Shown here in pieces: positions 41,438 through 50,424 of a DNA stretch of 64,000 bases (the stretch's first letter is position 1; every line of letters begins with the position of its first letter). The notes below the pieces were generated by a model, which did no database searches, was not told the DNA's origin, and saw nothing but the letters and a program-made list of their open reading frames with translations. Location: NCBI GenBank assembly GCA_002699085.1, contig PAAR01000016.1:1-64000 (forward strand), in the 5' to 3' direction. Origin of the DNA: Micavibrio sp. (lineage in GTDB: Bacteria > Pseudomonadota > Alphaproteobacteria > Micavibrionales > UBA9664). A program made the translations under genes and the position numbers.

Positions 41438-46643
<5,206 letters not shown>

Positions 46644-46844: not shown

Positions 46845-46928
46845 GTACGCGCCCCCACCGCCAATCATCAAAAAACCAGTCAGAGCAACGTGTTCAAGGT
46901 GCGTACCTTGGCGCGTACTCATGCGTAC
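46845..46928. promoter_or_regulatory. GCGTAC repeats upstream of the cytosine methyltransferase
   Basis: GCGTAC at 46901-46906, 46913-46918 and 46923-46928 (about one helical turn apart) and inverted GTACGC at 46845-46850. One copy is inside AAGGT-GCGT-ACCTT. A 6-bp pair AGTCAG (46878) / CTGACT (46929) encloses the three direct copies. Probable operator in the leader of the methyltransferase gene. Confidence 0.4.
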
Positions 46929-46955
46929 CTGACTGCAAAAAAGGAATTTGAATTT

Positions 46956-48152
46956 GTGGATCATCATTCCCTTAACATTTTGTCCTTGTGCGCCGGTGTC
47001 GGCGGACTCGACCTCGGCATCCGAGTGGCGCAGCCAAATGCTCGAGCAGTCTGTTTTGTCGAGATCGAAGCCTTTGCGTGCGAAATCCTGGCAACGCGCA
47101 TGGAAGACAAAAGCCTGGACGAAGCGCCTATTTGGACGGATTTACGATCCTTTGACGGCAAGCCATGGCGTGGCATCGTGGATTGCATCACTGCAGGATA
47201 TCCATGCCAACCATTCTCCGTCGCCGGAAAACAAAAAGGCAAAGACGACCCGCGTCACCTCTGGCCAGATGTGTACAGGATTGTGCGGGAGATACGCCCA
47301 CGGATCTGCTTCTTCGAAAACGTCCCCGGACATTTACGATTGGGGTTTGAACAAGTCCATGATGACCTTCGAGAATTGGGTTACAGCGTTAAGGCAGGCC
47401 TGTTCTCAGCGGAGGAAATCGGTGCATCTCACAAACGCGAACGCCTCTTCATTTTGGCGTACCGTGAAAGCGACCGAGCCAACGAGTGGCTGTCTGAGCT
47501 CAGAGAAATTCAAAGAACGGATGAATGCGGGCATGCCCTTGAGCCTGCGGGATCAGGTGAAGCATCTCTGGCCGACAGTCCGTGTTTCTTCTGCGAATGG
47601 CCCGTGCCAAAAGGAAATCCAGAACAACAATCCGAAATGCCGTCTGGAAGTATCAGTGGTGAATTGGCCGACACCGACGGCACAAGACTTCAAGAAACGC
47701 GGTCCGAATTCATCACAGAAGGGATTGGCGGAGACATCGGTCAACTGGGCAACGCCGAACACGCTGGATCATTTACCTGTGAGATCTCCCGAGGCGATGG
47801 ACAGGCTGATGGGGCCAAATGGCCAGCGTGCAGGCAGATCCCGCCCGAGCAATCTGCGGGAGCAGATCATGTGGCCAACGGTGACCGCTCAGGATTCCAA
47901 GAACAATGCGGGGCCGAGCCAATTTGTGCGGAACACCAAACCATTGAATGTGGAAGCTGTTTGCCATTCCCACCCGGACCCGAAGGTGATTGGGAGGGAA
48001 TCCCAGCCGGTCTTAAACCCGCAATTTGTCGAATGGCTGATGGGCTGGCCAATCGGGTGGACAGAATTCGCGCCTGTGGAAACGGTGTCGTCCCATTGGC
48101 TGCCGCTCATGCGTGGGTCGTTCTTACAACTGCAGCAAATGGAGGAAAATAG
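46956..48152 (+). CDS. dcm: phage DNA (cytosine-5) methyltransferase
   Basis: C5-methyltransferase of 398 residues. GTG at 46956 is chosen because it follows AAGGAA and gives the usual N-terminus (HSLNILSLCAGVGGLDLGI); the frame is open back to 46890. Motif I is LCAGVGGLDLGI and motif IV is GYPCQPFSVAG with the catalytic Cys. Motif VI is FFENVPG, motif VIII GASHKRERLFIL and motif X RACGNGVVP. The region between VIII and X is low-complexity, with repeated LADT/LGNA/VANG phrases, and is also open in frame 1 (see the overlapping entry). It protects phage DNA from host restriction or modifies its own targets. Confidence 0.9.
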   Translation: MDHHSLNILSLCAGVGGLDLGIRVAQPNARAVCFVEIEAFACEILATRMEDKSLDEAPIWTDLRSFDGKPWRGIVDCITAGYPCQPFSVAGKQKGKDDPRHLWPDVYRIVREIRPRICFFENVPGHLRLGFEQVHDDLRELGYSVKAGLFSAEEIGASHKRERLFILAYRESDRANEWLSELREIQRTDECGHALEPAGSGEASLADSPCFFCEWPVPKGNPEQQSEMPSGSISGELADTDGTRLQETRSEFITEGIGGDIGQLGNAEHAGSFTCEISRGDGQADGAKWPACRQIPPEQSAGADHVANGDRSGFQEQCGAEPICAEHQTIECGSCLPFPPGPEGDWEGIPAGLKPAICRMADGLANRVDRIRACGNGVVPLAAAHAWVVLTTAANGGK

Positions 48153-48165
48153 AAACCATGACTGA
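47521..48165 (+). other. overlapping reading frame with WPTP/LNPxFVEWLMGWP motifs inside the methyltransferase gene
   Basis: In frame 1, within the methyltransferase gene (frame 3), an ATG at 47521 opens 214 codons. They read LRDQVKHLWPTV, VVNWPTPTAQD, NWATPNTLD, LREQIMWPTVTAQD and LNPQFVEWLMGWPIGWTEF. These repeated W(P/A)T phrases and the LNPxFVEWLMGWPxGWT motif are well known from phage methyltransferase C-terminal regions. The frame has no stop from 46948 and ends over the start of the next gene. Either both frames are used or one is a relic; sequence alone does not decide. Confidence 0.5.
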
Positions 48166-49408
48166 TGCAAAATCAAAAGAATTGAAAATCGAACATGTAT
48201 CGGTTGATGAACTGATCCCTTATGCCAAAAATGCCCGCACCCATTCTGATACGCAGGTGTCGCAGATTGCCGCGTCCATGACAGAGTTTGGCTTTGTGAA
48301 TCCTATTCTGCTGGGTGAGGATAATATCATCATTGCAGGGCATGGGCGTTTGATGGCGGCGAAATTGCTGGGCATGAAAAATGTACCGACCATTCGCCTC
48401 AACCATTTGAATGAGGCACAACGTCGTGCGCTGGTGATTGCCGATAATAAAATCGCCGAGAATGCCGGTTGGGATGAAAGCCTGCTGCGTGAAGAATTAT
48501 CAGCACTCGAAGATCTGGATTTCAACATAGATCTGCTTGGTTTTAATATTGAAGAGCTTGATAATCTGTTCTTGGATGATGCTAACGCCTCTGGCGGTTT
48601 AACCGATGAGGATGCTGCGCCTGAGGTGCCGGAAACGCCTGTCAGTGTCCCTGGCGATATCTGGATTTGCGGAGATCACAAGGTGCTGTGCGGCGATTCC
48701 ACGATGATTGATAGCTATAACGCCCTGTTGGGTGAGGAGCTGGCCGATATGGTCTTTACCGATCCGCCTTATAACGTTAATTACGCCAATTCCATGAAAG
48801 ACAAAATGCGCGGTAAAGCCCGCCCAATCCAAAATGATAATCTGGGCGAAGGCTTTGGCGAATTTCTCTATGATGTTTGCACTAACCTGATGATGGTGTG
48901 CAAAGGCGCGATGTATGTGTGCATGAGCTCATCGGAGCTTCATACCCTGCACGGCGCGTTTGTTGGCGCGGGTGGCAAATGGTCAACCTTTATCATCTGG
49001 GCAAAAAATACCTTCACGCTGGGGCGTGCGGATTACCAACGCCAGTACGAGCCGATCCTTTATGGCTGGAAAGATGGGCATGAGCATTTTTGGTGCGGGG
49101 CAAGAGATCAAAGCGATGTCTGGTTTGTAAACAAGCCCGTAAAAAACGACCTGCACCCGACCATGAAACCTGTGGAGCTGGTGGAACGCGCTATTCATAA
49201 TTCCAGCAAGACTAAAGATATTGTGCTGGATGCGTTTGGCGGGTCAGGATCAACCATGATCGCCTGCGAAAAAACAGGTCGCCGCGCCCGCTTAATTGAG
49301 CTTGATCCGAAATATGTTGATGTGATCGTCAAACGCTGGGAGGATTTTACGGGGAAGAAAGCAATTCATGCTGAAAAAGGAGAAGAATTTGGTATAATGG
49401 CAAAATGA
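48158..49408 (+). CDS. ParB-domain N6-adenine/N4-cytosine DNA methyltransferase
   Basis: Protein of 416 residues. The ATG at 48158 follows GGAGGAAAAT. The ParB/sulfiredoxin-like N-terminal domain contains VDELIPYAKNARTHSDTQVS and IIAGHGRLMAAKLLGM. The methyltransferase domain has catalytic FTDPPYNVNYAN (motif IV) before SAM motif I DAFGGSGSTMIACEKTGR, the beta-group order. Such fused enzymes are typical phage orphan methyltransferases located just before terminase genes. It overlaps the next gene by ATGA. Confidence 0.92.
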   Translation: MTDAKSKELKIEHVSVDELIPYAKNARTHSDTQVSQIAASMTEFGFVNPILLGEDNIIIAGHGRLMAAKLLGMKNVPTIRLNHLNEAQRRALVIADNKIAENAGWDESLLREELSALEDLDFNIDLLGFNIEELDNLFLDDANASGGLTDEDAAPEVPETPVSVPGDIWICGDHKVLCGDSTMIDSYNALLGEELADMVFTDPPYNVNYANSMKDKMRGKARPIQNDNLGEGFGEFLYDVCTNLMMVCKGAMYVCMSSSELHTLHGAFVGAGGKWSTFIIWAKNTFTLGRADYQRQYEPILYGWKDGHEHFWCGARDQSDVWFVNKPVKNDLHPTMKPVELVERAIHNSSKTKDIVLDAFGGSGSTMIACEKTGRRARLIELDPKYVDVIVKRWEDFTGKKAIHAEKGEEFGIMAK

Positions 49409-50424
49409 TTAGTAAAAGTGCAATAGATAGGCAACGTGAGAGCGCCATCACTTTAGAAGTGGGTGGTGACGATGATAATTCTCAGATTAGAGAATTTTTA
49501 TCTCTATCACACGCTCTTTATACGATTACAGATCAAGCGGTTTACAGGGTTCTTTTAGCAGATGATATTGATCCAGACAGAACAAATCCTAATATTCCAA
49601 ATCAGAGCCAAAAAGTTATTCCATTCGGTTATAACGACCCTGTTGTTGCAAAAACATTATTAACTGCGAAATATTTATTTGATAAAAACAATGCAACTGC
49701 AGACCATCTCTTAGATGATTTTTTTGAAACTGTTATTGATTTAACAAAACATGCTCTAGAACTGCAAAAGATGGTTGCTGAATTAAAAGGTGAAATTTCA
49801 GAAAAAGAAGATTTCATTGCAAACACCAAGCAAAAACCAAATGGATATACCGTACCAGCCATCACCGACTTGAAAACAAAAGTACATAATATTTTGGTTA
49901 AAGCAGATAAAGCTAAAGACGCCATCTTAAAGCTTTACAAGATTCACTTTTTACCAAACGAAGGTGATAAGCCAAAGTTAGAAAAATATACAAAAGCTTT
50001 AAAAGATCTTTCGAATATTGATGATGAAGTATTGAAGGTTTGGGAGGAAAAGAAAAAGTTTTTAGATTTAATAAGAAATGCTCGAAATAGTAGTGAACAC
50101 CCAAAACCTAATCAGCAAGTTTTATTAAATGATTTTACGATGCAATCTGATGGATCAGTTGCCCCGCCTCTTGTTCAAATTGAGCATAAAGATACGCCTA
50201 TAGGCTTATTACCACTCGTAGAATTTATAGAGTTCTTGGAAAAAATGATAATTGATTATTCTGAATTATCGCCTGTTTTTATAAAACAGCTGCTTTTAAT
50301 CAATAGTGAGAAAAATCCATTGGGTGAATGGGTGACAGAATTTCCTGAAAAAGAACGCCGTCACCCACATGTTCGATTTTACCGTTCAATTAATATGGGC
50401 GGAACAGAGCGTATTTTAGGCTGA
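49405..50424 (+). CDS. AT-rich cargo protein with HEPN-like motif, 339 residues
   Basis: Not recognised as a family. It is mostly helical, with a coiled-coil-like middle (LELQKMVAELKGEISEKEDF). A motif RNARNSSEH at residues 224-232 fits the R-x4-H/RNxxxH pattern of HEPN RNases. The C-terminal 40 residues contain RRHPHVRFYRS. It begins by ATGA overlap with the methyltransferase and its 3' end overlaps the convergent DUF3489 gene by 9 bp. It is clearly more AT-rich than both neighbours. An antiphage or toxin-like cargo gene is possible but unproven. Confidence 0.6.
   Translation: MISKSAIDRQRESAITLEVGGDDDNSQIREFLSLSHALYTITDQAVYRVLLADDIDPDRTNPNIPNQSQKVIPFGYNDPVVAKTLLTAKYLFDKNNATADHLLDDFFETVIDLTKHALELQKMVAELKGEISEKEDFIANTKQKPNGYTVPAITDLKTKVHNILVKADKAKDAILKLYKIHFLPNEGDKPKLEKYTKALKDLSNIDDEVLKVWEEKKKFLDLIRNARNSSEHPKPNQQVLLNDFTMQSDGSVAPPLVQIEHKDTPIGLLPLVEFIEFLEKMIIDYSELSPVFIKQLLLINSEKNPLGEWVTEFPEKERRHPHVRFYRSINMGGTERILG

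Follow-up and report, generated by a model that had tools for sequence, protein, structure and literature searches.

M.EcoHK31I, a heterodimeric C5-cytosine DNA methyltransferase (C5-MTase; YGGCCR) that requires both of its polypeptides to be active, is the closest precedent for the locus described here, and the gene for its small subunit overlaps in another frame. According to the relevant passages of PMC3404938, the large subunit of M.EcoHK31I contains motifs I-VIII, motif X and a predicted target recognition domain, and the small subunit contains motif IX. The same passages (PMC3404938) describe M.AquI, a two-subunit C5-MTase (CYCGRG), as split in the variable region, with motifs I-VIII on the large subunit and motifs IX and X on the small subunit, and assign the variable region of C5-MTases, which recognises the target, to the interval between motifs VIII and IX. 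Two overlapping C5-MTase frames were reported, in the pertinent part of PMC5601072, for Streptococcus thermophilus phages of the 5093 group, a Streptococcus pneumoniae phage and a conjugative transposon (Tn5252). The ShiLan domain of actinophage methylases is described in excerpts of PMC11855218 as an inserted, out-of-frame HNH homing endonuclease of 195 aa.

The locus compared with these systems lies in a 64,000-nucleotide stretch of DNA from a Micavibrio sp., the whole of which is referred to hereafter as the window. Two same-strand frames, alpha (frame 3) and beta (frame 1, +1 relative to alpha), are open over nearly the same 1.2 kb (Table 1). At a probability of roughly 0.78, we favour the reading that a prophage C5-MTase is encoded here as two nearly co-extensive overlapping genes and that alpha and beta would be subunits of one split enzyme. 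The likeness to M.EcoHK31I is that the large chain has motifs I-VIII and X without motif IX, which is on the second chain. The two differ in the place of the recognition region, which is in the large subunit of M.EcoHK31I whereas in the window the VIII-IX region is conserved in beta and not in alpha, and in the extent of overlap, the window genes being nearly co-extensive, unlike those of M.EcoHK31I as that enzyme is described. M.AquI also has motifs I-VIII on the large subunit and motif IX on the second, but its motif X is on the small subunit and that of the window is in alpha, so the M.AquI type was rejected for the window. Among the relatives, a split of this kind with motifs IX and X on a second chain was seen in L292, and AquI-like actinophage gene pairs were found in L007, L008 and L011.

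The pneumococcal phage with overlapping frames is presumably MM1. Phages MM1 and 5093 resemble the window in having two same-strand frames across one methyltransferase locus, but motifs IX and X lie in their main frame, a reading made by eye (i-E from the IX-X HMM was no better than 0.08-0.09), and their +1 ORF spans the N-domain only, without motif IX or LPTP words. The window does not fit this type, in which the main frame is complete. The +1 ORFs over the N-domain lie at 6067-7026 in L410 and at 7480-8637 in L411 (phages 5093 and MM1). The ShiLan domain is likewise an out-of-frame ORF within a phage methylase gene but is not part of the methyltransferase, and a ShiLan-type insertion was rejected for beta, which has no HNH-named family among its Pfam, PHROGs and NCBIfam matches. 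In Paenibacillus phage Diva (gp49/gp50) a relative of beta has already been annotated as 'g49 internal gene', but there beta starts inside the alpha N-domain. Measured against the family definition of C5-cytosine DNA methyltransferases (PF00145), alpha has motifs I-VIII and the PCQ but does not hold both IX and X in its chain. The open-access literature, subscription papers lying outside the search, yielded no paper on the three-piece form described below and none that treats this family's alpha and beta as subunits. What is new is the almost complete overlap and its nested starts, how far it has spread and the few loci that look three-piece.

Table 1. The alpha/beta locus and its parts, in positions of the 64,000-nucleotide window
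Feature	Positions	Strand	Basis
alpha: C5-cytosine DNA methyltransferase subunit (putative), 398 aa, GTG start, motifs I-VIII and X	46956..48152	+	PF00145 E 7.3e-39, residues 7-182
beta: 403-aa ORF, +1 frame; starts at a TTG that overlaps the alpha GTG; contains the W/LPTP region and motif IX	46954..48165	+	phrog_1008 E 3.2e-27; purifying selection in frame; M(x)W start kept in relatives
AAGGAA, candidate ribosome-binding site common to beta (TTG 46954) and alpha (GTG 46956)	46941..46946	+	read from the sequence
alpha catalytic motif IV, PCQ	47202..47210	+	invariant in 15/15 rows of alignment A3
beta-selected stretch, alpha drifting; contains most beta W/LPTP units	47490..47960	+	pN/pS beta 0.27, alpha 1.97 (five pairs summed)
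beta WPTPTAQD unit; alpha reading LADTDG	47665..47688	+	sequence
beta WATPNTLD unit	47746..47769	+	sequence
beta WPTVTAQD unit	47872..47895	+	sequence
beta motif IX LNPQFVEWLMGWPIGWT; alpha reading of the same bases KPAICRMADGLANRVD	48013..48063	+	profile comparison via one-frame relatives
alpha motif X DRIRACGNGVVPLAAAHA	48063..48116	+	CGNGVVPL invariant in 15/15 A3 rows; assigned by signature, hhalign did not recover motif X
next gene: ParB-like and N6/N4 DNA methyltransferase	48158..49408	+	PF01555 E 3.3e-27; phrog_498 E 3.2e-163

A first-pass annotation of this DNA, made from the letters alone, had quoted protein phrases from both frames, and all of them are present: LADTDGTRLQE, LGNAEHAGS, VANGDRSGFQE and VDRIRACGNGVVP in frame 3, and WPTPTAQD, WATPNTLD, WPTVTAQD and LNPQFVEWLMGWPIGWT in frame 1. 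It had also described frame 1 as free of stops for about 1.2 kb and as ending over the next start codon, which proved accurate. Between stops, frame 1 is open from 46933; it overruns the ATG of the next gene (48158-48160) before its stop at 48163-48165 (ATGACTGA); this ATG was adopted although the ORF list has an earlier GTG, 48113. The feature, placed at 47460-48165 by that annotation, is real but longer, and runs from 46954 to 48165. The impression that both frames look like real protein was borne out: the third frame has 20 stops (46890 to just beyond the frame-3 stop), and frame 1 has a PHROGs match and purifying selection of its own.

As judged by profile comparison and signatures, alpha has motifs I-VIII and X and no recognisable motif IX, and beta has the W/LPTP repeats and motif IX. 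When alpha was aligned to seven conventional C5-MTases by hhalign, only motifs I-VIII were covered, and motif X was read from the GNGVVP signature. Beta gave no match in NCBIfam and, in Pfam, only HGLS at E 0.07, below the cut-off and taken as chance. Its direct match to the seven conventional methyltransferases was weak (E 0.11) and fell at the motif IX columns. The C-terminus of beta aligned with the IX-X block of one-frame relatives at hhalign E 1e-14, and this block from six relatives aligned with motifs IX and X of the seven conventional enzymes at E 1.3e-5 (probability 81). On the Lentzea contig (L215) and others, one chain holds both the block LNPRFVEWLMGLPAGWVTD and, about 15 residues farther on, the GN of motif X. 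Eight one-frame relatives (L357, L369, L370, L376, L377, L381, L392 and L398; all eight aligned, six also read individually) have motifs I-VIII, LPTP units, the IX block and motif X together. In the predicted model of L369 the core and C-terminus are confident and residues 201-325 (mostly LPTP) have pLDDT <50; the model aligns to M.HhaI with Z 26.0 and an rmsd of 4.3 over 246 residues (24% identity; 6-413 on 10-327, a range giving the first and last aligned residue only).

Because these eight relatives hold all the blocks in one frame, and the L369 model aligns to M.HhaI near end to end, alpha and beta are most likely one split enzyme. The place of the beta stretch between motifs VIII and IX, together with motif IX itself, argues that beta holds the parts that alpha lacks, and the position of this stretch suggests that it is the recognition domain. 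The link to target recognition made in the first-pass annotation holds, in that the VIII-IX region, where C5-MTases keep recognition, lies in frame 1. Beta might instead be a real overprinted protein with a separate job, such as a regulator or a counter-defence protein, and not a methyltransferase subunit. It gave no confident fold when modelled alone (mean pLDDT 50.5, pTM 0.24) and its N-terminal half has no assigned role, as a protein with another job might, but its conserved C-terminus is a motif IX, of which alpha shows none, and the same block occurs inside one methyltransferase chain in relatives. We consider a separate job quite improbable, and we read alpha and beta as two subunits of one enzyme rather than as two alternative enzymes.

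Whole W/LPTP units have been gained or lost among relatives. L015 lacks one that is present in the window and L019 has one extra. These changes look module-like, and their lengths keep both frames open (window 47665-47895, L015, L019).

The frame under selection differs by stretch: it is mainly alpha to 47490, mainly beta from 47490 to 47960, and both afterwards. Codon alignments were built on alpha proteins, with L014 left out, and pN/pS was summed over five pairs, a subset of the fourfold-site pairs chosen so that each sequence was used once. In the N-domain (46956-47489) pN/pS was 0.22 for alpha and 0.86 for beta, the relation was reversed in the middle stretch (Table 1), and at 47961-48149 (IX/X) the values were 0.53 for alpha and 0.66 for beta. 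In the same five pairs, 6 of 178 fourfold sites of alpha and 114 of 256 of beta had changed at 47490-47960. Sliding windows over 12 pairs gave the same picture. Alpha third-position changes equalled or exceeded first-position changes up to ~47490, changes piled up at alpha first positions (which are beta third positions) from there to ~47910, with both after that. The codon-position analysis proposed in the first-pass annotation gave, at 47490-47960, drifting frame-3 amino acids and a kept frame 1, the reverse of the frame-1 stops in close homologues and synonymous-only constraint in frame 3 that it had named as speaking against two coding frames.

In the fourfold test of this middle stretch, 16 of 17 pairs had few alpha changes (0-14%) and more beta changes; the exception was L025-L031, with 7/13 alpha and 14/18 beta sites changed. 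Many distant pairs also show high alpha change there (window-L026, 10/14), and we take the alignment at such distances to be unreliable. Selection on beta amino acids in the N-domain is weak (pN/pS ~0.9). Relative to the next gene, the reference for synonymous change (378 of 703 fourfold sites changed), alpha synonymous sites in the N-domain are held back (107/373, five pairs), which fits a translated beta.

In 111 representatives with <75% ungapped identity in the N-domain, beta scored as best conserved from motif VIII to motif IX in 1643 of 1792 pairs, with alpha best in 55 and the third frame in 94, and the alpha reading there had the lowest summed score of the three frames. Beta motif IX was kept in alignments of 24 sequences with 31-95% identity to the window. 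By these measures both frames behave as protein-coding sequence, which supports the overprinting suggested in the first-pass annotation and shows dual coding at the level of sequence comparison. A methyltransferase once in a single frame could have been broken by an indel, leaving frame 1 as a decaying relic, and the existence of one-frame relatives makes an ancestral frame change plausible. A relic would decay, however, and the kept motif IX, the low beta pN/pS in five pairs and the standing of beta as best frame in the representatives all make this reading very unlikely.

Openness of the beta frame was compared with chance by resampling codons. A first null gave probabilities of 0.01-0.29 per sequence and region for the absence of a beta stop; because this is weak alone, the wider set of representatives was used. 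Within the alpha N-domain these had 188 beta stops against 458.6 expected, and 60 of the 111 had none, against 9.6 expected. A second null, for alpha stops given the beta codons, gave 0 observed and 430.7 expected but is not counted as proof because the loci were picked for an open alpha; the fairer figure is that alpha is uninterrupted in 240 of 249 loci having motif X in the alpha frame. Frame 1 might be open and full of words merely from the G+C-rich codon use of alpha, and untranslated. The G+C content of the locus (0.55 at 47001-48000) is above most of the window, which lengthens chance ORFs, and the first null leaves room for one, but selection acts on beta codons, alpha is the lowest-scoring frame between motifs VIII and IX, and beta is conserved where alpha has stopped (see below). 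Given the substitution pattern and the resampled-codon controls we regard such a chance ORF as ruled out.

The most likely beta start is TTG 46954, which precedes the alpha GTG (46956) by two bases. TTG is a weak start codon. Frame 3 is listed as 46890-48152, but in L014 alpha-frame stops lie just upstream of the start and therefore rule out a start at 46890 in that locus. Among relatives, beta starts two or five bases upstream of alpha, and in L031 a beta-frame stop immediately 5' of the beta GTG bounds its start. Beta begins with M(x)W in 55 of the 74 representatives in which it is open across the whole N-domain. The nested place in these 55 holds a standard alpha start codon in 43 and CTG in 12; 13 have ATGTGG with the alpha GTG inside, and the window has TTGTGG. 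These comparisons show that the start arrangement is conserved. The positions of the two stops vary. In 240 overlapped loci the beta stop falls anywhere from 140 bases before to 424 bases after that of alpha (median 14 before), and in a raw count of 106 of 236 overlapped loci the beta stop is within -14 to +12 bases of the start codon of an ORF of at least 60 codons.

We propose that alpha would supply the catalytic large domain (I-VIII) and motif X, its 47490-47960 stretch serving only as a bridge kept open so that the chain reaches motif X, and that beta would supply the VIII-IX region, where C5-MTases keep target recognition, and motif IX. With overlapping start codons two bases apart and probably one ribosome-binding site, both would be translated together and could then associate as a heterodimer to form one active DNA-methylating enzyme, which might protect phage DNA. 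A programmed +1 ribosomal frameshift near 47440-47490, the frame switch of the first-pass annotation, would instead fuse motifs I-VIII of alpha with motif IX and the recognition region of beta in one chain, the unshifted product either supplying motif X or being a by-product. Such an event would account for the change of selected frame at ~47490, and W/LPTP words are in +1 also in 39 of 51 single-ORF relatives. It does not need the conserved beta start beside that of alpha, nor a beta frame that lacks stops before the switch point in more loci than expected; moreover, the fused chain would be without motif X, and six loci have an alpha that stops after motif VIII while frame 1 stays conserved. 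The frame switch is thus unsupported, and we judge it unlikely.

To see how widely the arrangement is spread, 301 loci (the full number in public contigs being larger) and the window, 302 sources, were scored with alpha and beta profiles. Both matched in 287; the beta match was absent in 8, the alpha match in 5 and both in 2. These counts are not an unbiased sample because most loci other than 55 viral ones described next were found through beta. Nor are the loci all distinct: contigs of L012-L023 recur as L067-L070 and L072-L079, L030 recurs as L226, and the window recurs as L001, L012 and L067. Where both matched (287 loci), the beta HMM put motif IX in +1 in 282, and alpha was one ORF from the N-domain to motif X in 240 of the 302 sources. 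A search with the alpha protein gave 55 viral loci. In 49 of these a downstream stretch matched beta motif IX, in every case in +1; the other six (L023, L045, L057, L064-L066) were left unclassified. The beta alignment matched 14 of 193 genomes searched, the source genome included. The closest matches in named genomes were in Micavibrio and other alphaproteobacterial assemblies, and an IMG/VR contig (L012) has an identical alpha. Plasmids hold few relatives of the C-terminal 246 residues of beta (5 of 72,556 records at E 1e-3).

Other arrangements were examined in 89 loci selected for the IX-X block, 80 from one search and nine added. The block is in the same ORF as I-VIII in 51, in +1 in 35 and in another relation in 3. 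In the 35, +1 was the best frame in 378 of 446 pairs. Among the 51 single-ORF loci, LPTP words are commoner in that frame in 8, in +1 in 39 and equal in 4. In the 39, alpha was the best frame in 322 of 466 pairs (+1 in 124, third in 20); the better conservation of alpha means that the LPTP words in +1 may not be coding there. This is the main result against taking every LPTP frame as real. Most of these 39 loci, with IX and X in the alpha frame, are among L320-L399.

Alpha is interrupted in 9 of the 249 loci with motif X in the alpha frame. Seven of the nine, L030 (same contig as L226), L032, L158, L160, L161 and L241, take a three-piece form; L150 and L207 do not. In the three-piece loci alpha is terminated past motif VIII, at residue 172-177 of the aligned part, and meets more stops farther on; beta remains open as far as its end, and a short alpha-frame ORF with an ATG (87-122 codons) carries motif X. 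Across six pairs, the N part had a pN/pS of 0.15-0.35 and the X part one of 0.20-0.70, and beta, taken from VIII through IX, had 0.09-0.18; sequences were reused, one pair was with the uninterrupted L029, and the few loci are partly close relatives. The low values for beta indicate that it is kept where alpha no longer reads through. From its sequence, the enzyme of these loci looks cut into three pieces, with the X-piece ORF predicted. An AAGG- or AGGG-like stretch ends 7 bases before the ATG of the X-ORF in 5 of the 6 three-piece loci (not L032).

Taken jointly, phage C5-MTases of this kind might be graded by the number of chains, one, two or three, into which frame changes have cut a single enzyme, from one-frame enzymes through AquI-like and EcoHK31I-like pairs to three overlapping ORFs (I-VIII; recognition and IX; X alone). 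In the two-chain form, a nested start such as ATGTGG would allow both subunits to be initiated from a single ribosome-binding site and to run over nearly all of the 1.2 kb; the W/LPTP units of beta would be exchangeable recognition modules. We hold this joint reading tentatively, at somewhat less than an even chance. Such a series would be a natural model of a protein that is split yet kept working. The subunit reading also concerns a long, nearly complete same-strand overlap in which both proteins are recognisable as parts of one enzyme, so that each half is testable against the other. The database records examined often call one frame a methyltransferase and the other hypothetical, or give just one. 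Phage methyltransferases of this kind may thus be filed without their recognition half, and specificity predictions from the kept frame would rest on residues not under selection.

Downstream of the locus are the ParB-like/N6 methyltransferase gene and phage genes (terminase small and large subunits, portal, head maturation protease, major head, tail terminator and tail), which place alpha and beta in a prophage. The gene upstream has a translation that, we assume, makes it cation diffusion facilitator-like, and 42593-46643, directly before the prophage genes, presumably holds RND-type efflux and cation diffusion facilitator-like genes, named from their translations. A scan of promoters and terminators gave nothing above chance. 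A 339-aa ORF at 49405-50424, between the N6 methyltransferase and terminase genes, matched nothing in PHROGs or NCBIfam, and Pfam only below threshold. A second C5-MTase is present in the same genome (G000 contig 31, 39294-40487; L002, L003), where PF00145 is matched up to profile position 320 within one open frame.
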